From: a virus
Length of the DNA stretch: 22,797 bases
Virus record (IMG/VR): IMGVR_UViG_3300031885_000122
Location: 1-22,797 of that record
Strand: one strand, 5' to 3'
In this document: piece after piece, positions 6,250 to 17,047 of the stretch
How the letters are laid out: each line of letters starts with the position of its first letter
Position numbering within the stretch: position 1 is the stretch's first letter
Made by a program: the position numbers and the translations under genes
Notes under the pieces: model-generated
What the model was told of the DNA's origin: nothing
The model's input: only the letters and a program-made list of their open reading frames with translations
Databases searched by the model: none

Positions 6250-7959
6250 CTACCTCACCGATGCCTGATGCAGGCGTTCGAGAAGGATATCGAAGGAAGC
6301 TGACTTAGAGAACTTTCCGGACTCGTCGCGAGCCCGACCCGGATTGGCGACTGCAGCCTTCCCCTTGGCCTCCTTCGGGGGTGAAGCCTGTGCCTTTTCC
6401 ATCTGTGCCCTGGTCTGACCCTTTGCGTACCCCATTGGAGCAGCCGACATGATCTTAGGATCGTGGCCCAGCCACTTCTCAGCGTACGGCATCGCAAACT
6501 GGGGCGCGCTCATGGCCAGCATCCACGGGACCATGCCTTCCACGCCCATTGCGTTCAGGAGCAGGGCCGGGGCGATTCCCATTCCGGTCTGGACGGCGAA
6601 CCGCTTCCAGTCCGGCATCTCGGTGATGTTCTGCTTCTGTTTCCAGGCCTCGAATCCTTTGCCACCCATCTGCGCTTCCTGGAAGCGTTGCATCTGCTCC
6701 TGGGTGAACTCTCCGGTTGTTCCGGCCGCTCCCGCTCCGGCCGCTCCGGCCGCTCCGCCTTTTCCACCCTTCTTCTTAGCGGCAGCGTCGACCGGAGTCT
6801 CAGGTTTGGCTGACGGCTTGAACTCCGTAGGAGTGGTGGCACCAGGAGGCGGAGCCTGCGTTCCGGCCTTGCCTCCCATCCGGATGTCTTCCATCAGGCG
6901 CTTCGGAGGTGCCTTCCCTCCGCCGGGCACGTTGACCTCGGATCCCATCATCCGGGTCATCTTCTGCTGCGAAGTCTCAGCGGCCGGCGCAGGAGTGGAT
7001 GACGGAGCCGGAGTCGGTGTCGGGGACGGAGCAGGCTTCGGAGCCGTCGCGCCATATCCCTTGTTGAAGGGATCGACCATCGGCATCGCCGTGGGGCCCG
7101 GCGTTCCGGTCGGAGTCACTCCTTTTCCGGCAGGAACCGGTGCCGGTGCACTGTATCCCTTGCCGAAGGGGTCGGCCATGGGCATCGCGGTAGGACCTGG
7201 TGTTCCGGTCGGCGTCGCGCCTTTTCCGGGAAGAGCCGGAGAGGGCTTACCTCCCGGAGGTCCCGCCGAGGGAGCCACGGTCTTTCCCCCTCGGGAATCC
7301 GGAACCATGTCCGGAGGCTTTGCAGGAGCGGAAGGAGTCGGAGATGGTCTCGGAGGTCCACCGACTCTGGGATCGATGGGGAGCGCCGTCTTAGGCGACG
7401 GCGCCATCATCCTGGTCTTTGCTACCGGCAACGCTTGCGGCGTAGGTTCGGGAGCTGGTGCTGGTACCGGTGCGCGGGCCTTGAGAGGACTTGATTTTGC
7501 GGCCGGAGCCGGCGTCGGAGCCGCGGGATCGTATCCCTTGGGAAAGGAGACTTCTCCCTTCGCTTCGCCCTTCAAGGCCCCCTTCGCGCGCATCGTGGCC
7601 ACGTTCTTCCGCATGATCTCCGTCTTGGTCGGATCGACTTTGACGTCGGTGACGGGATCGGGAACCTTCCTGGCCGCCATCGCTCCCGGCTTGGTCTTGA
7701 ACTTCGGCCTGGCGGCGGCGAACTTGAGCAGGCAGAGATCGATCGCTCCGAGGTACTCCCCTGCGAACTGGTCGATGAGACGATCTACGGCCGATTTGTC
7801 CATCTCTTGTCTCAGTACCGACTCCTGGTACTTCCTCTTCGACCGGCCGAGTTCCTTCGACAGGATTCCGCTCCCGGCTCCGGGCTCCCTCAAGGTCGAC
7901 CGCTCGGACTCGGTGGGGAACATGGACATCACTGGACCGCGATGATAGGTGACGTCCAC
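6250..7959 (-). CDS. Pro/Ala-rich repeat protein with a C-terminal hydrophobic region (569 aa)
   Basis: I do not recognise a family. The order is: a helical, charged N-terminus (residues 15-95); a long Pro/Ala/Gly/Thr region (about 145-390) that is probably disordered; a Gly/Ala tract (399-415); a helical part; a hydrophobic Met/Ala/Pro region (456-492); and a basic tail. Inside the Pro-rich region two adjacent 33-residue units (245-277 and 278-310) are identical at 27 positions by my count. A short piece near 141-153 (KGYDPAAPTPAPA) resembles their end. The start is a GTG at 7959, directly after the previous stop, with GAGGTAGGA in front; an ATG ten codons later is the alternative. The stop abuts the ATG of the protease gene. 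A flexible linker or internal head protein is plausible, but this is inference. Confidence 0.78.
   Translation of the reverse strand: MDVTYHRGPVMSMFPTESERSTLREPGAGSGILSKELGRSKRKYQESVLRQEMDKSAVDRLIDQFAGEYLGAIDLCLLKFAAARPKFKTKPGAMAARKVPDPVTDVKVDPTKTEIMRKNVATMRAKGALKGEAKGEVSFPKGYDPAAPTPAPAAKSSPLKARAPVPAPAPEPTPQALPVAKTRMMAPSPKTALPIDPRVGGPPRPSPTPSAPAKPPDMVPDSRGGKTVAPSAGPPGGKPSPALPGKGATPTGTPGPTAMPMADPFGKGYSAPAPVPAGKGVTPTGTPGPTAMPMVDPFNKGYGATAPKPAPSPTPTPAPSSTPAPAAETSQQKMTRMMGSEVNVPGGGKAPPKRLMEDIRMGGKAGTQAPPPGATTPTEFKPSAKPETPVDAAAKKKGGKGGAAGAAGAGAAGTTGEFTQEQMQRFQEAQMGGKGFEAWKQKQNITEMPDWKRFAVQTGMGIAPALLLNAMGVEGMVPWMLAMSAPQFAMPYAEKWLGHDPKIMSAAPMGYAKGQTRAQMEKAQASPPKEAKGKAAVANPGRARDESGKFSKSASFDILLERLHQASVR
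7030..7227 (-). repeat. Two tandem 99-bp in-frame units
   Basis: Two adjacent units (7129-7227 and 7030-7128) encode 33 residues each, with the shared core TPTGTPGPTAMPM followed by [AV]DPF and KGY. Amino-acid identity is 27 of 33 by eye. The DNA is also similar (for example GGCATCGC at 7181 and 7082 on the plus strand), but third positions have drifted. This points to an older duplication that has been kept in frame. Confidence 0.88.
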
Positions 7960-7962
7960 GTC

Positions 7963-8634
7963 CTACCTCTTCCTGCCGGTATTGGGGTCGAACTTGCCTT
8001 CTCCTTTGCTGCCGCCGTAGAGCTTGGCCATCTCCATGAGCGACTGCCCGGACGGGCCGGTCGCGTCGAGTGCCCTCGAGGGGATGTCCTTCTGGATCCC
8101 CACCAGCTCCCTAAGGATCTGCGGGGTCGCGAGGCTCGGACCGGCCTTGTGCCACTGGGACAGGAGGTTGCCTGCGATGAGCGGGTTCTTCGCCACGGAC
8201 GGGGCGAAGTCCACGATGGCCTGGAAGTACATCGGGACGTTCGGGTCCCCCTTGAGTTCCGGATGGTCCCTCATGATCGTCGCCAGGGACTGCTTTACCG
8301 CGCTGCCCTCCTGGAGGTACTTGATCCCGTGGGCGACGAGGGGCGTGGCCGCGATGGCCGTCGCCAGCGGGGCCAGGAGCAGGCCGAGGGTCTGGAGGGA
8401 TCCTGCCGTCTTCTCGTAGAAGGAGAGGAACTCGACGGTCCCGTTCAGGCGATCGAAGGTCTCCTCGTCGATTCCCTTGAACTCGTCGACGAAGAATCGG
8501 ATGAGGTCCTGCTCCTTGCAGCCGTCGGACGCGATCTTGATCAGCCGGGCGGCGACCCGGCCGAGATCCTCCTGCTCTTCCTGCGTGAATTCCAGGTCGC
8601 CGTAGAGCGCGGCGTACTTCTTCATGAGGGGCAT
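7963..8634 (-). CDS. Small helical protein with a central hydrophobic segment, unknown function (223 aa)
   Basis: I do not recognise a family. Residues 15-75 look helical and acidic. Residues 80-103 form one long hydrophobic segment (LQTLGLLLAPLATAIAATPLV), long enough to cross a membrane once. The rest is mixed, ending in a basic tail (GEGKFDPNTGRKR). I chose the first ATG (8634) because GAGG stands about 9 bases before it. The next ATG, three codons later, has no such site. It lies between two other genes with single hydrophobic segments and is 16 bases from the previous stop. Being in the head module suggests a virion role. A holin is unlikely, because a single protein this size in the head cluster would be atypical, but it cannot be excluded. 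Confidence 0.75.
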   Translation of the reverse strand: MPLMKKYAALYGDLEFTQEEQEDLGRVAARLIKIASDGCKEQDLIRFFVDEFKGIDEETFDRLNGTVEFLSFYEKTAGSLQTLGLLLAPLATAIAATPLVAHGIKYLQEGSAVKQSLATIMRDHPELKGDPNVPMYFQAIVDFAPSVAKNPLIAGNLLSQWHKAGPSLATPQILRELVGIQKDIPSRALDATGPSGQSLMEMAKLYGGSKGEGKFDPNTGRKR

Positions 8635-8650
8635 AACAACCTCGTCAGCC

Positions 8651-9754
8651 TCAGTTGATCATCTCTTGAAGCCGCTCGGCCTCGTTGTAGGGCTGGTTCT
8701 TCTTGTGCTTGAGTTCCCTTCCGATGTGTCCGGCCGTGCCCACTGCTGCGGCGCCGAGACCGAGCGTCGCGGCGGGAATTCCGATCGTGAGGGCGGAAGG
8801 GATCGACGCATCCTTGGCGAAGTTCTCGATGAACTCGAGGAATCCATCGAGACCCGCCTCGGCTTGCTTGCGGAAGTTGTCCAGCGTGTCGAGCAGCTCC
8901 CGGCTGAAGTCCTCCGGGGTCTTGAGGGACTCCATCCTGTCGACGACGGCGTTCCCGAACGTGTCCATCAGGCGGAGGCGCTTGGAGGCCCGGTCCTCGT
9001 CGCTGATCTTGTTCTTGATCGTGTCGAGGTAGATGGCCAGCACGTGCCCGCCGTTGACGATGTCCAGGGTGCTGTCGGGCATCTCGAGGTTGTCGTTGAT
9101 GAGGGACTTGTCCACGGGGGCGCCCAGCTTCATCATGTCCTGCCGGATGCCTTCGAAGACTTCCTTCCAGATCGGTGCCCATTCCGGGTCGCGGCCGCAC
9201 GCGAACTTGAACAGGTCGGAGAGCTTCCCCTCGTTCAGGATGATGTGCTCCTTGGCGAGGTTGGCGACCTTGTGCATCTCCCCCTCGAGTTCCCCGCGGA
9301 GGCCCATGATCTGGCTGTTCAGTTCGTCCCGGTACCGGATCACGCGTGACGCCAGCTTCTTCATGAGGAGATCGGCGTTCCTTTGGCGGCACCCGTCTCC
9401 TTCGGGGTCCGTGATCGCCAGTTCGGCCGTCTTCACGAAGGCCGGCCTGACCGCATCGAGAACCTCGAAGACCGATGCGTGCTTGGCCAGAGGCGCGGAG
9501 GAGACGCGGATCTGCTGGATGACCGCGTCGGCGTCGGCGAGGTCGATGGTGAAGTTCTTGTCCTCCGACCGCTTGAGCATGGCGAGGTTCGCGTCGTGGT
9601 TGGCGATCTCGGCAACCCTGCGGATCTGCATCGGGTTGAGTTCGTTCGCCTCGGCGGCCTTTCGGAGGGACTCGTTCAGACTGACCCCGCTGGAAAGGAA
9701 GTTGTCGCTCACTTCCTTGGCGAGAGTCATCAGTTTCATGGGATTGACGTCCAT
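8651..9754 (-). CDS. Helical protein with one C-terminal hydrophobic segment, unknown function (367 aa)
   Basis: I do not recognise a family. The first 310 residues look almost wholly helical and contain few prolines. A single hydrophobic Gly/Ala-rich segment (residues 318-343, ending GLGAAAVGTAGHIG) could cross a membrane or pack as a helix hairpin. A basic, Lys-rich patch (348-353) and an Asn/Glu tail follow it. The ATG is preceded by an ideal AGGAGG site, and 47 bases separate it from the terminase stop. In many phages the portal gene sits here, but this protein is short, helical and shows none of the portal features I know. An internal or injected virion protein is one possibility; that is inference from position and the hydrophobic segment. 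Confidence 0.75.
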   Translation of the reverse strand: MDVNPMKLMTLAKEVSDNFLSSGVSLNESLRKAAEANELNPMQIRRVAEIANHDANLAMLKRSEDKNFTIDLADADAVIQQIRVSSAPLAKHASVFEVLDAVRPAFVKTAELAITDPEGDGCRQRNADLLMKKLASRVIRYRDELNSQIMGLRGELEGEMHKVANLAKEHIILNEGKLSDLFKFACGRDPEWAPIWKEVFEGIRQDMMKLGAPVDKSLINDNLEMPDSTLDIVNGGHVLAIYLDTIKNKISDEDRASKRLRLMDTFGNAVVDRMESLKTPEDFSRELLDTLDNFRKQAEAGLDGFLEFIENFAKDASIPSALTIGIPAATLGLGAAAVGTAGHIGRELKHKKNQPYNEAERLQEMIN

Positions 9755-9801: not shown

Positions 9802-12800
9802 TCAAATCGAGGGCAGCGAGGTGGACACGAGCCGCCCCTTCCTCTGAAGAGCCGCATGGTAGCAGTATAGCACGGCGTGGAAGGCGTCGTCCGGAAGCGT
9901 GTGGTCGTACTTTATCCGGTTCGTCGTGTGGCTGTACTCCACATAGATCGAGGTGAAGTCGTCGATGAACCTCTTCATCTCGTCCTGCCGGAAGAAAGTG
10001 ATGATCCCCCGCTTGATGCCGTCGATCGTCTTCTCGATCGCCGTGTTCCTGTCGATCATGTACCGGAAGGCCTGCTGATGGAAGGTGTACGGACTATGGG
10101 AGGCGACGTACTCGGCCTCGAGGAGGAGCGGGTAGTCCCCGAGCCTCGACCACCCGTGATCGGCGACCAGGCGCGCGTTCGTATGGACTCCGAACCCGTA
10201 GTCGGACATGATCCATTGGACGCCGTGCTCCCGGATGATCTGGTTGATGATCTCCGGTTGCCGGGCCAGGTTTGCCAGTTCACCGACGAACCTGATGATC
10301 TTCACGATCCGGAACCGACCGTCTGGGAAGTAGGCCCCCATGGCGACCACAGTGAAGGACGGCCCGACGCCCTTCTTGGTCCTGCGCTCGCCCATCTCGC
10401 TCATGCCCGTGGGGGAGTACCCTCCGGTCCCGTGGTCGACGCCGGCGCAAAGGAAGATGTCCTGCGTTCCGAGTTTACGTCCCTCTTCCGGGGTGACCGG
10501 GTCTCGCTCCTCGCAACGCTTGAAGACGTCCGCCTCCGTGAGGACCAGCTCCCCTTCGTCGTATGGAAGGCCGAGAACTTCGTTGAAGAAGACCTTCCGA
10601 GGGATGTTCGGGTCTTCCATCTTGGCGAGGATCTTGGCATGCGTGGTGAACGGAACCATGAGTTGCGGGATCCGGATGCCCCACCAAGAGTCCAGCATCG
10701 ACGGACGAAGAGGATGCCACTTCCCATTCCTCATGTCGATCGGGCCGCCGCACTTCGTGCAGATGTAACCTTTCTTCCCGATGACCTTGTCGTCGAGGTA
10801 GTTCTCGTGACCGGACCCGCACTTCACGAGCCACTCGAACTGGCAGGTCTCCTTGTAGCGCCGGTTCAGGGTGTTGCTCGTCGTCTTGGGAGTCCCGGCA
10901 TAGGTCCGGAAGGTTTTATCCGGCTCGCCCTGGAAGTGGGACATCGACTCTTCGAGGATCGGGATGTTGTCGGAGATGATGTCCTGGATCTCGTCGATGA
11001 GCAGGTGGTTGGCCGTGATCCCGCGGGACGGGTCGGCCGAGTAGTAGCAGGACCGGAAGTTGATCAGGCTCCCGTTCGCAAATTCCCTGGACCCGACCTG
11101 CCACACGTTGGCCCTGGACCGGAAGCCCTGGGTGACCACCTCCGAGTCCTCGCACATGGGCCGGAAACGCTGCTGGCTGAACAGGGCGACCTGGTCGTGC
11201 CTGGGCTCGATGGCCAGGGTAAAAAATGTGGGATAGATGATGCTCAGGGTGATGGCCTTGGAGGCCAGGGAGGAGCTGTTATGGGTCACGAGACCTTCAG
11301 CGACGAAGTTGTGAGTGCCCTCGACCTCGAAGTCGATGCACTCCTGAACCCCTACCGGAGTGATCTCCGTGATCTCGTCCCAGAAGAGATCCGAGTAGAC
11401 GTGACGTTCCAGGATGTCGACGAGCCGTTGATCGTACCGTTTGTCCGATCGGAAGAACGCTAAGTACAACTCAAGCCGATCCTTCGTAGGAGGATACTTC
11501 AGGGTTACCTTGAGACCGCGTGAGTACGGGCTACGTTTGTCGGCCCTTCCCATCCGGATTCTTCCGTCGCGGGAGGATAGGATGCCCTTGATCAGCGAGT
11601 TAATTTCTTTCGGGAACGTGTCTCTGTTGTTGTTCGACAAAGTCGACGGAGGCTTGATACCCTCACTCTTTCCGAGAGCCCCGATCTTCTCCAGGAAGCA
11701 CCGGATCCCTTCCTGGGTCTCGATTCGGAGTATGTACGCAAACCGGCGCTCCCCTCGACGTTTGAAGATGTTGGGCCAGTTCTCACGGAGCTTGGAGGGG
11801 ATCCCAAATTTCCAAAGAATGGCTTGAACATCCTTGGCCAGGCGAAGGGAGATGGAGCAGTACTCGATCGAGTACTTCGATTGACCGTTCCTCTTGACGT
11901 GTCCATCCGTGGACCAAAGACGGTTCAGGAAGAGGGACGTCTGGCGCCGGTCGAGATCGAAGACCCAGTCCGGGATGAACTTCGTCGCTGACCGTGTGTC
12001 GTGAAGGCCGTCTTGTTTCATCCAGTCCCGGAGGGGTCCGGCCTGTCTCAGATGTATACCGAGTGCAGGTGTTTTCTTCTTCTTCTGATGAATCCTGTAT
12101 GACCCGCCAATGGAATGGATATCAGCCAGGAACTCATTCAACTTTGGACCGGGAACGGACGTGAAAGAGTACTGGGCGTCCCCGATGTGACCGTCGCCGA
12201 TCATGTAAGCGGTGAGCCGGATCCTTTCATCAGGCATCGGAATCCGGTTGAAGGATCCGCATTGACGGACAGCAGCAAGTCGGTCACCGACCTTCAACTC
12301 TCCGCCAGGAACCCACCGGCTCCACAGTCTCATCGGATGCGTGGTGGCAATGATGACTTCATGGCCCTGGCGAGTCTTCACCTTGAGGCAGGGTTTCGAA
12401 TACCGACGGGAGACCCAGGTCACTTTCCCGGAGGTCATGCTGGCGCCATCGTTGGACATCGTCGCGAGATCATCACCGACACGGACCGTCCCGGCTTCGA
12501 TGAGACGGCCGTTCTCCAGGCTCACAAAAGCATTTACCTGGACAGTTTTTTCGACCTGGCGGCCGGCCATGATGAGAATGTTCCTGGAGCCTACCGGGTA
12601 CTTCTTCCTGACGTCATAGACGGCACGGAGGTATTGTCGATTGGAGAGGTCGAGCTTCTTCCTGTTGATGACGATCATCTCTTCCGCGTAACTGGAGATC
12701 CATCGCTTGCGAACGGAATCAAGGATCTTCTCGGAGTCATACTCCATTTCCTCGGCCGCTTCGGAGATCGTCGAGGGCCTCGGCTCGAAGGACAAGGTCC

Positions 12801-12855
12801 TTCCCTCGGTCAACGCCGCTGCTACCCGATCGACGACGATCTCGTCGATGTTCAT
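9802..12855 (-). CDS. terL: Large terminase subunit (TerL), interrupted by an intein; 1017 aa precursor, 594 aa if spliced
   Basis: This is the packaging motor: an ATPase that drives DNA into the prohead, plus a nuclease that cuts the concatemer. The precursor reads GRQVEK at residues 98-103, just before the intein (residues 104-526), and SSSLASKAI just after it. Joined, these give a Walker A loop of the GRQVEK-S type, with Glu where most P-loops have Gly. Walker B is HLLIDEIQ (D621, E622). The coupling motif is YAGTPKTTSN (652-661). A zinc-ribbon-like set (C679, H683, C699, C702) follows, as in lambda gpA-like terminases. The RNase H-like nuclease has D807 (GVDHG), D885 (SDYGFG) and D989/D990 (DDAFHA). 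The spliced length of 594 residues is normal for the family. The ATG overlaps the previous stop codon (ATGA) and has AAGGA in front. No frameshift is seen. Confidence 0.93.
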   Translation of the reverse strand: MNIDEIVVDRVAAALTEGRTLSFEPRPSTISEAAEEMEYDSEKILDSVRKRWISSYAEEMIVINRKKLDLSNRQYLRAVYDVRKKYPVGSRNILIMAGRQVEKTVQVNAFVSLENGRLIEAGTVRVGDDLATMSNDGASMTSGKVTWVSRRYSKPCLKVKTRQGHEVIIATTHPMRLWSRWVPGGELKVGDRLAAVRQCGSFNRIPMPDERIRLTAYMIGDGHIGDAQYSFTSVPGPKLNEFLADIHSIGGSYRIHQKKKKTPALGIHLRQAGPLRDWMKQDGLHDTRSATKFIPDWVFDLDRRQTSLFLNRLWSTDGHVKRNGQSKYSIEYCSISLRLAKDVQAILWKFGIPSKLRENWPNIFKRRGERRFAYILRIETQEGIRCFLEKIGALGKSEGIKPPSTLSNNNRDTFPKEINSLIKGILSSRDGRIRMGRADKRSPYSRGLKVTLKYPPTKDRLELYLAFFRSDKRYDQRLVDILERHVYSDLFWDEITEITPVGVQECIDFEVEGTHNFVAEGLVTHNSSSLASKAITLSIIYPTFFTLAIEPRHDQVALFSQQRFRPMCEDSEVVTQGFRSRANVWQVGSREFANGSLINFRSCYYSADPSRGITANHLLIDEIQDIISDNIPILEESMSHFQGEPDKTFRTYAGTPKTTSNTLNRRYKETCQFEWLVKCGSGHENYLDDKVIGKKGYICTKCGGPIDMRNGKWHPLRPSMLDSWWGIRIPQLMVPFTTHAKILAKMEDPNIPRKVFFNEVLGLPYDEGELVLTEADVFKRCEERDPVTPEEGRKLGTQDIFLCAGVDHGTGGYSPTGMSEMGERRTKKGVGPSFTVVAMGAYFPDGRFRIVKIIRFVGELANLARQPEIINQIIREHGVQWIMSDYGFGVHTNARLVADHGWSRLGDYPLLLEAEYVASHSPYTFHQQAFRYMIDRNTAIEKTIDGIKRGIITFFRQDEMKRFIDDFTSIYVEYSHTTNRIKYDHTLPDDAFHAVLYCYHAALQRKGRLVSTSLPSI
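11278..12546 (-). mobile_element. Intein with LAGLIDADG (DOD) homing endonuclease inside TerL
   Basis: This 423-residue in-frame insertion splits the Walker A loop of the terminase. The C-terminal splice blocks are canonical: block F is VQECIDFEVEGTHNF (503-517), and block G ends VTHN (523-526) before extein Ser527. Block A fits the standard spacing only if the first intein residue is Thr104, where inteins normally have Cys or Ser. Block B keeps its His (H173), but the residue three before it is Ala, not the usual Thr. Two endonuclease motifs are seen: LTAYMIGDGHI (D221) and LFLNRLWSTDGHV (D317), both with the expected Asp, so the DNA-cutting domain may be intact. Three 60-base lines I counted within it are 50, 45 and 57% G+C (11461, 11581, 11641), against 63% in the downstream extein (10441). 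This suggests later arrival. A Val105 start would leave KTSSSLA after splicing, which fits P-loops less well. Confidence 0.88.
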
Positions 12856-13958
12856 GGCTTGTCCTTGACCTTGGACTTGTCTTCGATCAGCGGAGGACTT
12901 TCGGGAGGCGGGATGTCGAGATCGATGTCATCCTCGATCGGATCGACGACGAACTTCTCGAACATCTTGGCGACTGCCGAGCTGGCGGTCCCTCCAAGCG
13001 TGTCGAGCCGGTCGCTGGCCTTGAAGAAGATGTCGAGATGAGCCCTCATGGCCTGAAGACCAAGATCCGTCGTGTTCCATTGCTTGTTGGCAAGGTAGGC
13101 AACCTGGGCGTCCTTCTTGATGACCTCGAGGACTGCGCGCGTATCCGCTGCGGAATCGATCCCCTGTCTGGCGCCGTACTCCGAGAGTGACTGCTTCCTG
13201 GCCATGAACCGCATCCTACGCTCGTCCGGTGGGAGGAGGAGGCTGTATGCGTCAAGGTCGGCTTTCGGAAGCTCGTGGATCGAATAGAACAGGGTCCGGT
13301 AGGCGATGATCGCCTCGACGGGAATCATGTCCTTCAGATGGAGGACCTTCCCGTAGAGCCCGGCGATCTCGTCGGACGTCGCGTTGGTAGATAAGAATGG
13401 TTCAACCATCTCCCTGGACTTGATGATGTACGTCAACTGACTTATCAACTCGGGATGGTCGTAGTACGTCTCGATCCCGAGAAGCTTGAGAAGGACCCTG
13501 AATTTTGACTTCAGGCCGGGCTTCCTCGGTTCGTTGCCGGAGACGACGGCCTTCTCGAATTCGTCGGGAAGATGCTGGATGAAGAGGGAGTAGTACCGAT
13601 TGATCTCGGCCCTTCGAAACTTCATCGTGAGCGGGACAAGGCCGATCTGAATCAGTTCCTCGAGGACCTCCGATGCCGGCGTATTCAGGAATCGGAGGGT
13701 GAGGAACCTGTGAAACGGCATCGTGATGCCAATGCTTCGGTGCTTACTGCCGAAGCTGAAGATGTCGTTTCGGGCCGCACGGAACACGAAGTCATTGTGT
13801 TCCGAAGCCTCGATGAACTCTCTCCCGCCGCCATACGTGACGTCGCCCTTCAAGAAGCCTGACTTCTTGAGGGTCTCGTACGTCTGAAACGCGATTCCGT
13901 ATTTTGTCAGAACCTGGCTTCGAGATAGGCGGTCGGGGTCACTCCGGTTGTGCCCCAT
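12852..13958 (-). CDS. Winged-helix protein next to the large terminase; possible small terminase (368 aa)
   Basis: Residues 12-50 read as a helix-turn-helix with a wing: SRSQVLTKYGIAFQTYETLKK, a turn with SGFLKGD, then GGGREFI. This resembles the MerR-like DNA-binding domain of lambda gpNu1, the small terminase subunit. The remainder is mostly helical, with a basic middle (FRRAEINRYYSLF; KPGLKSKFRVLLKLLG). It ends in an acidic, Pro-rich and then Lys-rich tail. It starts at an ATG preceded by AGGAG, overlaps the gene before it by 20 bases, and shares an ATGA overlap with the large terminase that follows. Small terminases bind the packaging start site and are usually encoded directly before the large subunit, which fits. 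At 368 residues it is longer than the common 150-200, so another DNA-binding or virion role is possible. Confidence 0.4.
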   Translation of the reverse strand: MGHNRSDPDRLSRSQVLTKYGIAFQTYETLKKSGFLKGDVTYGGGREFIEASEHNDFVFRAARNDIFSFGSKHRSIGITMPFHRFLTLRFLNTPASEVLEELIQIGLVPLTMKFRRAEINRYYSLFIQHLPDEFEKAVVSGNEPRKPGLKSKFRVLLKLLGIETYYDHPELISQLTYIIKSREMVEPFLSTNATSDEIAGLYGKVLHLKDMIPVEAIIAYRTLFYSIHELPKADLDAYSLLLPPDERRMRFMARKQSLSEYGARQGIDSAADTRAVLEVIKKDAQVAYLANKQWNTTDLGLQAMRAHLDIFFKASDRLDTLGGTASSAVAKMFEKFVVDPIEDDIDLDIPPPESPPLIEDKSKVKDKP

Positions 13959-15723
13959 CGACGGAGCTCCTCAGCTGTTTCAACTGCCGAATCACGTTGT
14001 CCAGCGAGAACAGCGCCGTCTTCACCGGGCCCTGCTCCAGTTGCAGGCCCAGCCTTGAGGCCAAGAGAAGCTTGGCGAGGGACGAGGAGGCCTCCTCGAG
14101 TTCGTCCGTGTGCTCCATGAACTTGAGGAGGTTTACCTCATTGAGGAAGTTCAGCCCGAGGACCGTGTCGACCGTGCTCTTCGCGTCCTGCTCCGACACG
14201 TCGAGTGCGATCTTGAAGAACGAATAGCCCTCGCAAGGCCGAATCCTCGCCGCCGCCTGGATGAGGTTGACCGGGCCGGATTCAAAGCTGGAAGATGCGG
14301 CCGCGATCTTTTCGAGGCGCCCACCGCCGCTGGGTTCGGAGGCCGGACCCATGGTAAAGAACGCCGAGCCTGATGTTTCTGCTTTCTTCATCATCTCGAG
14401 AGCGACGGACGGCCCCGTACGCTCCGAGAGGGCTCGGCAGAAATCGGTCCTCGACTCGCCGGTCTTCGACACCTCGTCCATCTCCGCCCCGTGGATGGAG
14501 TAGGAAAGTCCGCGGCAGCGGATCTCGACGGCGTTGAGCGGCCAGTCGATCTTGTTCGAGTCGATCGAGTTCGCCACCTTCCCGAGTCCGGCGGCGCAGC
14601 CCATCCAGTTCCACTCGGGTCCCATGAAGACGGTGTCCCCGAGCTGGTGGAAGCCCTGGTACTTGTCCGAGGCGTAGATGGTCTTGAACCCACCGGTGGC
14701 CATGAAGTCGGCCACCTTGATGAAGGGCACGCCGTCCTCGTTCGAGCCGAGGTAGAGGAAGCGCACCGGCCACGTCGCAACGGCATGGCCTTCCTTGATC
14801 ATCCAGAAGAAGCCCACGTCGTTGGTCTTCGGGGCCTCGGCCATGGCGATCTTGCTGAGTCCGTTCGCGTCCTTGATCTCGCGGCCGCCCACGTGCTCGG
14901 CGATGGCGATGGTCCTGTCCCCCTCGAGGCTCATGGCGAGCTTCACGCCCATCGGCTTGGTGGGTTCCAGCGGGTTCGCGTCCCATCCGATCACCTGGTC
15001 GAAGACGAAGGCGGCGCACTTGTCGGTGCCGCCGAAGAGGACCGAGTAGATGCCTGGCTGGGACACGTCCTCGTAGGGACGGAACTTGATCTCCTCGACC
15101 TTCCAGGTCTGCTTGGCTTCGGCTTCCTTCTGGAGGGTCTCGCGGGCGGCGACGGCATAGTCCGTCACCACGCCCCTGAGGATGGTGTTGGCGGCAAGGG
15201 CGTACTCCGTCCCTTCGCGGCCGATCGTCTCGAAGGACTTCTTCAGGTCGTCCAGCGTGAAGGACAGCCCGGAGGAGAAGGAGTACTTCCCGGAGAACGG
15301 CGCGCGGGTGACGTTGTAGATCGACATGTCGGCGAGTTCGCCCTGGCCCGGCTCCGATGCGGTCCCGAGTTCGGTCTTCTGGAGAGAGGAGAGGAAAGTG
15401 GCCTTGGTCATCGGGCGGAGCTTGCCCTCGTGCCAGAACAGGTCCAGCGGGGAGAGCTTGAAGTTCTCGATGATCAGTGGGATGGCGGCCTTGTCGTCGA
15501 TGACGATCTGGCCCACGCCGGCGCCGGCCTCGGGATCCGTTCGGTTCATGTGGATGCGGATGTCGTGCTCCTGCAAGAACGGGTTCTGTTCGTGCAGGTA
15601 CATCATGATCTCGCTTTCCCACTTGGCGGGGTCGCGCCCGAGCTTGACGTTGGCGACCTTCTCGACCTCCCCGAGGGAGGCTGCAGTGAGGAACAGCGGG
15701 CTGCCGGCGATCTCGGCCTTCAT
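13939..15723 (-). CDS. Large protein of unknown function, probably virion (594 aa)
   Basis: I do not recognise this protein. It starts at an ATG preceded by GGAGGAG, 10 bases after the stop of the gene upstream. The first 300 residues mix beta and helix and include a basic amphipathic stretch (PLIIENFKLSPLDLFW). The middle is rich in Gly and aromatic residues (for example GPEWNWMGCAAGLGKVAN). The last 100 residues look helical, with a Leu-rich segment (LAKLLLASRLGLQLEQG) and a basic end. There are no catalytic motifs, signal peptide or obvious membrane segment. It lies between a probable spike protein and the packaging genes, and its length suits a structural or internal virion protein. It does not show the features I would expect of a portal. 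The last 20 bases overlap the start of the next gene. Confidence 0.8.
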   Translation of the reverse strand: MKAEIAGSPLFLTAASLGEVEKVANVKLGRDPAKWESEIMMYLHEQNPFLQEHDIRIHMNRTDPEAGAGVGQIVIDDKAAIPLIIENFKLSPLDLFWHEGKLRPMTKATFLSSLQKTELGTASEPGQGELADMSIYNVTRAPFSGKYSFSSGLSFTLDDLKKSFETIGREGTEYALAANTILRGVVTDYAVAARETLQKEAEAKQTWKVEEIKFRPYEDVSQPGIYSVLFGGTDKCAAFVFDQVIGWDANPLEPTKPMGVKLAMSLEGDRTIAIAEHVGGREIKDANGLSKIAMAEAPKTNDVGFFWMIKEGHAVATWPVRFLYLGSNEDGVPFIKVADFMATGGFKTIYASDKYQGFHQLGDTVFMGPEWNWMGCAAGLGKVANSIDSNKIDWPLNAVEIRCRGLSYSIHGAEMDEVSKTGESRTDFCRALSERTGPSVALEMMKKAETSGSAFFTMGPASEPSGGGRLEKIAAASSSFESGPVNLIQAAARIRPCEGYSFFKIALDVSEQDAKSTVDTVLGLNFLNEVNLLKFMEHTDELEEASSSLAKLLLASRLGLQLEQGPVKTALFSLDNVIRQLKQLRSSVDGAQPE

Positions 15724-15733
15724 GGCTCCTCCG

Positions 15734-17047
15734 TCAGACCATCACGTCGCTATAATAGTCCGGCAACCCCATCTTGCCGAGCGAGCCGGCCAACGAGCCG
15801 ATCAGGTCCGGCGAGACCAGCGTTACCGTGGATGCCGGCGGCACGTAACCATGGACGTGGGTCATTAGAGCCTGAACATCGCTCTTGTAAACCTCGTCCA
15901 CGAACGACTTCAGGACCGCCAGTTCACCCTTGCTCCCAAAGTATACGCTTTTCTTGAATCGAATCCCTGCCCCCATTGACCCTTGGTACCACTCGCACAG
16001 GGGATCCAGGGGACTCGGGGTCTTGTCGTGGGTGAAGGTGGCCACTTTGGCAGGGTCCCACATCACCCAAGGACCACCGAACCCGATGGTCTTGGCCTTG
16101 ATGAAGAGGCCCTCTGAGTTCAGTGAGATGAACTGGTCCTTTCCCCAGGAGATGACGGCCTCATCCTCGTTGAACCGGAGCTGGTAAAGGTTGGAGGCAG
16201 CGTTCGATCCATCCTTGGAGACCGTCAACCGGACTTCGTTCAGTTCATTGTCGACTTCGAGGGTTCCGAACTTCCGAAGCTGGATACGCGCGCCGCGCTT
16301 GATGGTCTGGTTCAAGGTCTTCTTGCTGCGGCCGAACTTGAGATCATCGGCATCCCTGAGCCCGCCGGCCTCGACGGCGAAATCCCGATCGGTTGGCTTA
16401 TCGGAATCGGAGGACAATGACGCCTCAAGACGGACGGGAGCCTTGTCCTGCGGCGTGGGGGAATCATCGATCTTCGAGGTGTCATCCTGTTTTTCGGTGA
16501 AGACCTTGAAGATGAACCCGGGGACGATGTTTACCGTGATCTGCCTGGCCGTGAAGACCAGGGCGTTCTTGGCGGCCAGGAACGCGGCATAGAGGATGTT
16601 GGAGACGAAGTGGATCAGGCTCCCGTCCGAGAAGGTCCTCACCTGAGTTTCCGTCTCACGACTCTTCATGATCACGTCGCCGTGGACGGGAGTGAACTCC
16701 TCGTTGGGATCGCCATAGTTCGGGAGGTTCTCCGTGTCGGACTTGCCGAGTGCATAGTCCTGGAATTGCTCCTGCTCCTCGGCAAGTAGTTCCAAGACCG
16801 TTTTCTCGGCACCATTCTCGATCGGGGCCTGGGCCAGGGGAACCCGGCAGACGATGATCCAGCCAAACAGATTGTGATGGGAGCAAAGGACCTGATCGCC
16901 TTCCTTGTACGGGTTGTAGACGCCAAGATCGCACGGATGGCAAACCTGCTGAACGCCGAGGCCCAGCATGGTCACATAGTAGATCTTCTTGGTGTGATAG
17001 GCCCTGTCGATCACACCCAGGTGAAGAGTCGGGGGATCCATCGGCAT
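15734..17047 (-). CDS. Probable baseplate/tail-spike-associated protein (437 aa)
   Basis: I do not recognise a close family; the call rests on the shape of the sequence. The N-terminal part, around residues 40-70, holds the pattern NPYKEGDQVLC followed by GWIIV. This resembles the small OB-fold domain of phage baseplate spike and hub proteins. The middle has a proline-rich, Asp/Ser/Thr-rich stretch. It is followed by beta-rich sequence with alternating short strands (KDGSNAASNLYQLRF, then AVISWGKDQFISLNSEGLFI), as expected of a beta-helical or spike-like body. Near the C-terminus, ALMTHVHGYVPP resembles the His-containing end of Mu gp45/P2 gpV-like spike proteins. The ATG at 17047 lies 7 bases after the polymerase stop codon, with a weak AGGTG ribosome site overlapping that stop. 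The likely role is in the virion. Any other beta-rich structural protein is possible. Confidence 0.4.
   Translation of the reverse strand: MPMDPPTLHLGVIDRAYHTKKIYYVTMLGLGVQQVCHPCDLGVYNPYKEGDQVLCSHHNLFGWIIVCRVPLAQAPIENGAEKTVLELLAEEQEQFQDYALGKSDTENLPNYGDPNEEFTPVHGDVIMKSRETETQVRTFSDGSLIHFVSNILYAAFLAAKNALVFTARQITVNIVPGFIFKVFTEKQDDTSKIDDSPTPQDKAPVRLEASLSSDSDKPTDRDFAVEAGGLRDADDLKFGRSKKTLNQTIKRGARIQLRKFGTLEVDNELNEVRLTVSKDGSNAASNLYQLRFNEDEAVISWGKDQFISLNSEGLFIKAKTIGFGGPWVMWDPAKVATFTHDKTPSPLDPLCEWYQGSMGAGIRFKKSVYFGSKGELAVLKSFVDEVYKSDVQALMTHVHGYVPPASTVTLVSPDLIGSLAGSLGKMGLPDYYSDVMV

Follow-up and report, generated by a model that had tools for sequence, protein, structure and literature searches.

A probably splicing-competent viral terminase intein with threonine at residue 1, in a family where Cys, Ser and Thr interchange

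Can protein splicing in nature begin with threonine? This question is raised by a gene for the terminase large subunit (TerL) in the virus record IMGVR_UViG_3300031885_000122 of IMG/VR, of which positions 1 to 22,797 were analyzed; this whole stretch of 22,797 nucleotides is referred to here as the window. The gene contains an intein whose first residue is Thr104. Threonine is bulkier than serine, and the Thr usually found at position 7 of block B (B:7), which is missing here, helps to strain the scissile bond. In several inteins, replacement of Cys1 by Ser (C1S) kills activity, and Ser1 is said to need dedicated activation without a counterpart at Cys1 sites (PMC10189870). These points were counted against splicing by Thr1. 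No characterized natural Thr1 intein was found in the open-access literature searched; one may exist elsewhere. A sequence-only reading of the locus offered three options: Thr starts splicing, another mechanism is used, or splicing is slow or conditional. The analysis described below favors the first, since residue 1 is only ever Cys, Ser or Thr in 26 diverged and often-switching alleles, and speaks against the other two.

The terL gene (9802..12855, on the minus strand like all features given below) encodes 1017 amino acids and matches the terminase large subunit family PHROG 675 (E 1.2e-46). Its product combines a P-loop ATPase and a nuclease with this family profile match, as a terminase large subunit does; the Pfam GpA_ATPase match of 22.5 bits lies slightly below the cut-off of 25.6. 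The protein is composed of an N-extein (residues 1-103), the intein (104-526) and a C-extein (527-1017), and would have 594 residues once spliced. The intein itself (11278..12546, 423 residues) comprises a splicing domain and a LAGLIDADG endonuclease domain, recognized by two Pfam families whose scores exceed their cut-offs (Intein_splicing, 43.9 bits; LAGLIDADG_3, 55.8 bits). As in other homing endonuclease inteins of this type, two LAGLIDADG motifs, AYMIGDGHI (12184..12210) and LFLNRLWSTDGHV (11896..11934), both supported by the LAGLIDADG_3 match, lie inside the HINT domain; the endonuclease domain looks intact, and its cleavage activity is a prediction. The five adjoining large ORFs (window 6250-9754 and 12852-17047, minus strand) have no PHROG match. 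Genes of similar sequence flank TerL in three other loci (L002, L003 and L011), as in the window, and these ORFs probably encode structural proteins of phages from a poorly known group. A further record, L001 (IMGVR_UViG_3300032931_001135), starts within TerL and matches it at 100% identity from residue 774 to residue 1017, without reaching the intein; the same phage population has therefore been seen twice.

The N-extein ends in GRQVEK (12547..12564), the first portion of the Walker A P-loop. Intein-free TerL homologues from IMG/VR, 53-59% identical to the window TerL over the compared extein, read GRQVEK-TSTIAGK (L002), GRQVEK-SSSMASI (L003) and GRQVEK-STTIAAK (L011). Excision of residues 104-526 yields GRQVEK-SSSLASK, in register with all three, while an intein starting at Val105 would leave one surplus residue. 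Consequently, only the junctions K103/T104 and N526/S527 are permitted (slashes mark insertion boundaries here and below), and residue 1 is Thr104, with the codon ACT (12544..12546). The AlphaFold2 (AF2) model of the intein (pLDDT 90, pTM 0.90) leads to the same position: when it is aligned to crystallized inteins, including that of Mtu RecA, model residue 11, which is T104, stands opposite chain residue 1. Thr104 thus occupies the catalytic position, as the sequence-only reading had claimed, and the comparison with intein-free homologues that it had called for excludes a junction at any other residue. It is hardly conceivable that the threonine reflects a sequencing or assembly error or a misplaced junction. 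The window allele does rest on one metagenomic contig, but nine further Thr1 alleles come from other contigs and use the codons ACA, ACC and ACG, which makes an error at 12544-12546 very unlikely, and one junction is common to the three intein-free homologues. On the sequences compared, both possibilities are already refuted for the intein family as a whole.

Class 1 inteins are defined by Ser1, Thr1 or Cys1 (PMC5222942, PMC3196547), so that Thr1 does not lie outside the known scheme. Besides a residue 1 of this kind, the window intein has His173 at B:10 (12337..12339), Asp508 at position 4 of block F (F:4; 11332..11334), a block G ending in Thr524-His525-Asn526 (G:5 to G:7; 11278..11286), and Ser527 (11275..11277) as the +1 nucleophile, a position that takes Cys, Ser or Thr in class 1. 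The B:10 His, the F:4 Asp, the block G His-Asn pair and such a +1 residue are the usual ones in that class, though not every one is indispensable. The B:7 Thr, usual but not required, is replaced by Ala170 (12346..12348). A profile alignment pairs A170 and D508 with the B:7 Thr and the F:4 Asp, respectively, of the Ssp DnaB intein; A170 and D508, together with H525, N526 and the +1 Ser, are all present as first described. The class 2 inteins known so far, which are orthologues of KlbA, have Ala1, a G:6 Ser and a +1 Cys (PMC4031507), whereas the window has Thr1, His525 and Ser527 at these places. The misfit to the class 3 signature noted earlier also stands: F:4 is Asp508 rather than Cys, with Cys506 (intein residue 403, 11338..11340, kept in 25 of 26 family alleles) located at F:2; B:12 is Met175 rather than Trp; and only Thr524 at G:5 agrees. 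The spacing between Cys506 and Thr524 was considered as a route to class 3 and rejected, as the segment CxDxxVxxxHNFVA aligns ungapped with class 1 DnaB inteins. The NX His after Arg/Lys, which marks the Ser1 or oxyester subgroup, is lacking. The nearest solved structures to the AF2 model are endonuclease-bearing inteins (TliVMA, 7qss/7qsu, Z 32). The modeled splicing domain superimposes on the class 1 Ssp DnaB intein 1mi8 with an rmsd of 1.4 over 138 residues (Z 22.5) and is farther from the class 3 intein 6bs8 (Z 18.2).

Intein-alignment searches and DNA-pattern searches of IMG/VR recovered the family to which this intein belongs. An allele was taken to be a distinct sequence with readable ends at the same P-loop site; 25 were found in addition to that of the window, giving n=26. 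Twelve begin with Cys, four with Ser and ten with Thr, and no other first residue occurs among them. All four Thr codons are used at residue 1 (ACT in the window, ACC, ACG and ACA elsewhere). The B:10 His and the block G His and Asn are invariant across the family, including all Thr1 alleles, and Ser occupies +1 in 26 of 26. The F:4 Asp is invariant except in the Cys1 outgroup allele L043, and the G:5 Thr is present in every Thr1 and Ser1 allele; the Thr1 alleles keep every other catalytic residue. A coupling of the B:7 Ala to Thr1 did not hold up: B:7 is Ala in 24 of 26 alleles and Gly in L043 and L070, regardless of residue 1 and thus also with Cys1, which rules out Ala at B:7 as a partner of Thr1. 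Single-protein searches were less productive, and the family came to light only once alignments served as queries. With TerL as query only three matching loci were obtained, and with the intein only distant inteins in IMG/VR and three matches in genome_contigs (archaeal HerA-like ATPases, one deltaproteobacterium). The DNA-pattern loci L104, L110 and L113 proved to be chance matches, as did most new loci of a later pattern search. Outside the family, Thr1 was seen in none of the other, mostly Cys1, inteins with a readable first residue.

Mobile inteins commonly insert in P-loops. The proposal that the present intein acts as a timer of DNA packaging by interrupting the ATPase loop is unsupported. 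Distantly related Cys1 inteins occupy the same kind of site in Bacillus phage KLEB27-3, in Psychrobacillus phage Perkons and in an archaeal ATPase, and mycobacteriophage inteins are hosted most often by TerL, where they interrupt the ATPase domain (PMC5050341). Other inteins encountered in the searches widen this picture. In Diapherotrites and Micrarchaeota MAGs (L029, L030), Cys1 inteins 28% identical to that of the window interrupt the P-loop of HerA-like ATPases at GARGSGK/C. A DarB-like antirestriction gene of Klebsiella phage Miami (L037) is interrupted at its P-loop by an intein that begins with Asn and shows the class 3 signature of Trp B:12, Cys F:4 and Thr G:5. Two related TerLs (L057, 2524-4050; L058, 2587-4113) have an empty P-loop, GRQVEK-STLLGN, and a different Cys1 intein at NADR/C...HN/TRGIPA, which on its sequence constitutes a second TerL insertion site. 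The TerLs of L043 and L046 contain, in addition to the P-loop intein, an in-frame insert in the nuclease domain, DWG/CHDEETRIL...VAYQGN/TGEN, which ends in Gly-Asn rather than His-Asn; this looks like a third intein site.

The distribution of the family bears on whether its members splice. The nearest relatives of the window intein (L038, L061, L039 and L062) are 58-64% identical to it, and the TerLs that hold them are only 26-39% identical to the window TerL, while the TerLs closest to it (53-59% identical) are empty, that is, intein-free. Similar inteins in distant TerLs, together with empty close ones, indicate horizontal transfer of the intein. A non-splicing insert that wrecks the P-loop of an essential motor would hardly spread in this way, which favors splicing competence. 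Selection could be assessed best for L040 (Cys1) and L041 (Thr1), whose C-exteins are 93% identical (dN/dS 0.13) and whose inteins give a dN/dS of 0.25 with unsaturated synonymous sites. Given these values, both alleles presumably yield a working TerL. More distant pairs give values of 0.10-0.20 at near-saturated dS, and dS saturation in most pairs limits the use of this measure; where it can be measured, the ratio is well below 1, which, as far as sequence comparison goes, is purifying selection on the intein.

These results weigh on the possibility that the Thr1 alleles are crippled or conditional, with splicing slow or absent. TerL would then come from another source or be freed by some trigger, which could set the time of packaging. 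Changes from Cys to a hydroxyl residue mostly impair tested inteins (PMC10189870), and the absence of the B:7 Thr points in the same direction. However, ten Thr1 alleles with all other catalytic residues, arising by repeated switches and spread across distant TerLs, are difficult to reconcile with this scenario, as is a dN/dS well below 1 where measurable. Moreover, the window contains a single TerL copy (the contig being fragmentary, another copy may lie elsewhere), and nothing indicates a trigger. This scenario is therefore considered improbable.

The main argument for a catalytic Thr104 comes from the way in which residue 1 changes. On a tree of 25 alleles, built with the residue-1 column left out, the Cys, Ser and Thr states are unclustered: residue 1 requires at least 11 changes, and shuffled labels require 11.1 on average. 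The Thr label alone requires at least six changes on strongly supported branches. For example, L081 (Thr1) is nested in a supported group with L079 and L082 (both Cys1), and L040 pairs with L041. Cys, Ser and Thr together make up 14.5% of residues overall in the alleles, and no other well-filled alignment column has three states that all fall within this set. A position that switches often and yet stays Cys, Ser or Thr most plausibly supplies a nucleophile through its side chain; a position released from this duty would drift to other residues. The count of switches may be too high if inteins have recombined internally. Homing may also overwrite residue 1 with the +1 Ser or Thr codon of the recipient and thereby bias it toward Ser and Thr, but this does not explain the absence of later drift.

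The same restriction affects two mechanisms in which Thr104 would not be the nucleophile. In the first, similar to class 2, Ser527 would attack the Lys103-Thr104 amide directly, with Thr104 as a bystander. All remaining catalytic positions are present, and the class 2 KlbA intein likewise has Tyr 21 residues ahead of its block B His. However, KlbA combines Ser at G:6 with Cys at +1 (PMC4031507), whereas His and Ser are found here; Ser is a weak nucleophile for attack on an amide, and the confinement of residue 1 to Cys, Ser and Thr would be left unexplained. This mechanism is accordingly very improbable. In the second, resembling class 3 with the nucleophile at a new place, Cys506 at F:2 would attack the N-terminal scissile bond and residue 1 would be irrelevant. 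Cys156 (intein residue 53, 12388..12390, ahead of block B; kept in 24 of 26 alleles, with Ser in L043 and Gly in L125) and Cys506 are both kept in nearly all alleles, whether residue 1 is Cys, Ser or Thr. Every allele with a variable residue 1 has Cys506 (the outlying Cys1 allele L043 alone lacks it), the spacing of 18 from Cys506 to Thr524, counted on sequence, equals that in the class 3 intein L037, and the G:5 Thr with the B:12 Met recalls the MCT triplet of AceL NrdHF (PMC7891396). Nevertheless, the profile alignment places Asp508 and not Cys506 at F:4, Cys1 alleles retain Cys506 as well, the modeled fold is nearer to class 1, and residue 1 stays Cys, Ser or Thr in 26 alleles; in class 3 inteins, by contrast, this position drifts to Ala or Asn, as L037 illustrates. 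Initiation by Cys506 is thus unlikely. It is slightly less probable still that such initiation, by freeing residue 1, defines a splicing class of its own, the fourth, in which an intermediate between classes 1 and 3 survives.

If Thr104 is the nucleophile, some feature of the active site may help a hydroxyl to act. In known Ser1 inteins, the scissile bond has the NX His close by, preceded by Arg or Lys (PMC10189870); 2cw7, a Ser1 intein, has Arg and His 24 and 23 residues ahead of its B:10 His. This His was rejected as an activator here: the position at -23, derived from the 2cw7 sequence by counting residues and not from coordinates, is Arg150 (intein residue 47) in the window, and none of the 14 Ser1/Thr1 alleles has His there. 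A different residue does covary with the nucleophile, namely Tyr152 (intein residue 49, located 21 positions ahead of the block B His; 12400..12402). Tyr49 is found in 14 of 14 Ser1/Thr1 alleles vs 3 of 11 Cys1 alleles (Fisher p 1.5e-4; with the column chosen from about 400 scanned, Bonferroni correction gives about 0.06). L125, a Cys1 allele found later, has Ile49 as predicted, which brings the Cys1 count to 3 of 12 and p to 7e-5. Two to three of four phylogenetically independent contrasts agree with this association, and none opposes it. Pro at intein residue 52 shows a like trend (14 of 14 vs 5 of 11). The Tyr also occurs in 2cw7 and in the Ala1 KlbA intein, and the latter means that it is not unique to hydroxyl nucleophiles. 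The 'YxKP' turn (Tyr152, Pro155), invariant in the hydroxyl alleles, is best regarded as a lead, being the best candidate for what enables a hydroxyl nucleophile.

Taken together, the evidence points to a mobile class 1-type intein, probably able to splice, that lies between the P-loop Lys and Ser and has Thr104 as its likely N-terminal nucleophile. In such a mechanism, the Thr104 hydroxyl would attack the Lys103 carbonyl in an N-to-O acyl shift, and the N-extein would then pass to Ser527 through transesterification. Cyclization of Asn526, aided by His525, would release the intein, after which an O-to-N shift would ligate GRQVEK to SSSLA; the predicted spliced peptide across the junction spans GRQVEKSSSLASK. 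In the active site of the family, which has neither the B:7 Thr nor the NX His, any of Cys, Ser and Thr would serve as residue 1. From these comparisons we infer splicing itself, Thr1 as its nucleophile and any role of Tyr152. The ten Thr1 alleles intermixed with Cys and Ser alleles suggest that Thr can start protein splicing in nature.

A change of Cys1 to Ser usually abolishes intein activity, and no Cys intein has yet been made into a useful Cys-free one (PMC10189870). The natural family described here has switched among Cys, Ser and Thr no fewer than 11 times within a single scaffold, and Thr1 and Cys1 are about equally common in it. Its close pairs (L040 vs L041; L081 vs L079 and L082) would make hydroxyl-initiated splicing directly comparable, and the family may serve as a source of thiol-independent splicing domains. 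The broader finding is not one odd intein but a family in which residue 1, supposedly the least changeable, is interchangeable among Cys, Ser and Thr. What is new here is the free interchange of Cys, Ser and Thr within one active site, the lack of both the B:7 Thr and the NX His known from Ser1 inteins, and the occurrence of Tyr at intein residue 49 in 14 of 14 Ser1/Thr1 vs 3 of 12 Cys1 alleles.

Comparison with known systems places these features in context. Like the Ssp DnaB (1mi8) and Npu DnaB (4o1r) inteins, the window intein has the HINT fold (Z 22.5 and 21.5), the B:10 His, the F:4 Asp and the block G His-Asn pair; unlike these cyanobacterial inteins, it has a Thr1 that interchanges with Cys and Ser in its family, Ala at B:7 and Cys at F:2. 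With the cysteine-less Ser1 inteins (PolB16 OarG, PI-PkoII/2cw7, Mvu TFIIB) it shares hydroxyl nucleophiles at both junctions, but their NX His is near-invariant (PMC10189870), whereas the window has Arg150 followed two residues on by Tyr. Class 3 inteins, such as mycobacterial DnaB-1 and AceL NrdHF, have the same Thr at G:5, and Met at B:12 is known from AceL NrdHF, a split class 3 intein with the MCT triplet (PMC7891396); in contrast to class 3, the window lacks Trp at B:12, has Asp and not Cys at F:4, and belongs to a family in which residue 1 is always nucleophilic. Finally, the inteins of phages KLEB27-3 and Perkons likewise follow immediately on the P-loop Lys of TerL, but they begin with Cys and are only about 23-26% identical to the window intein.
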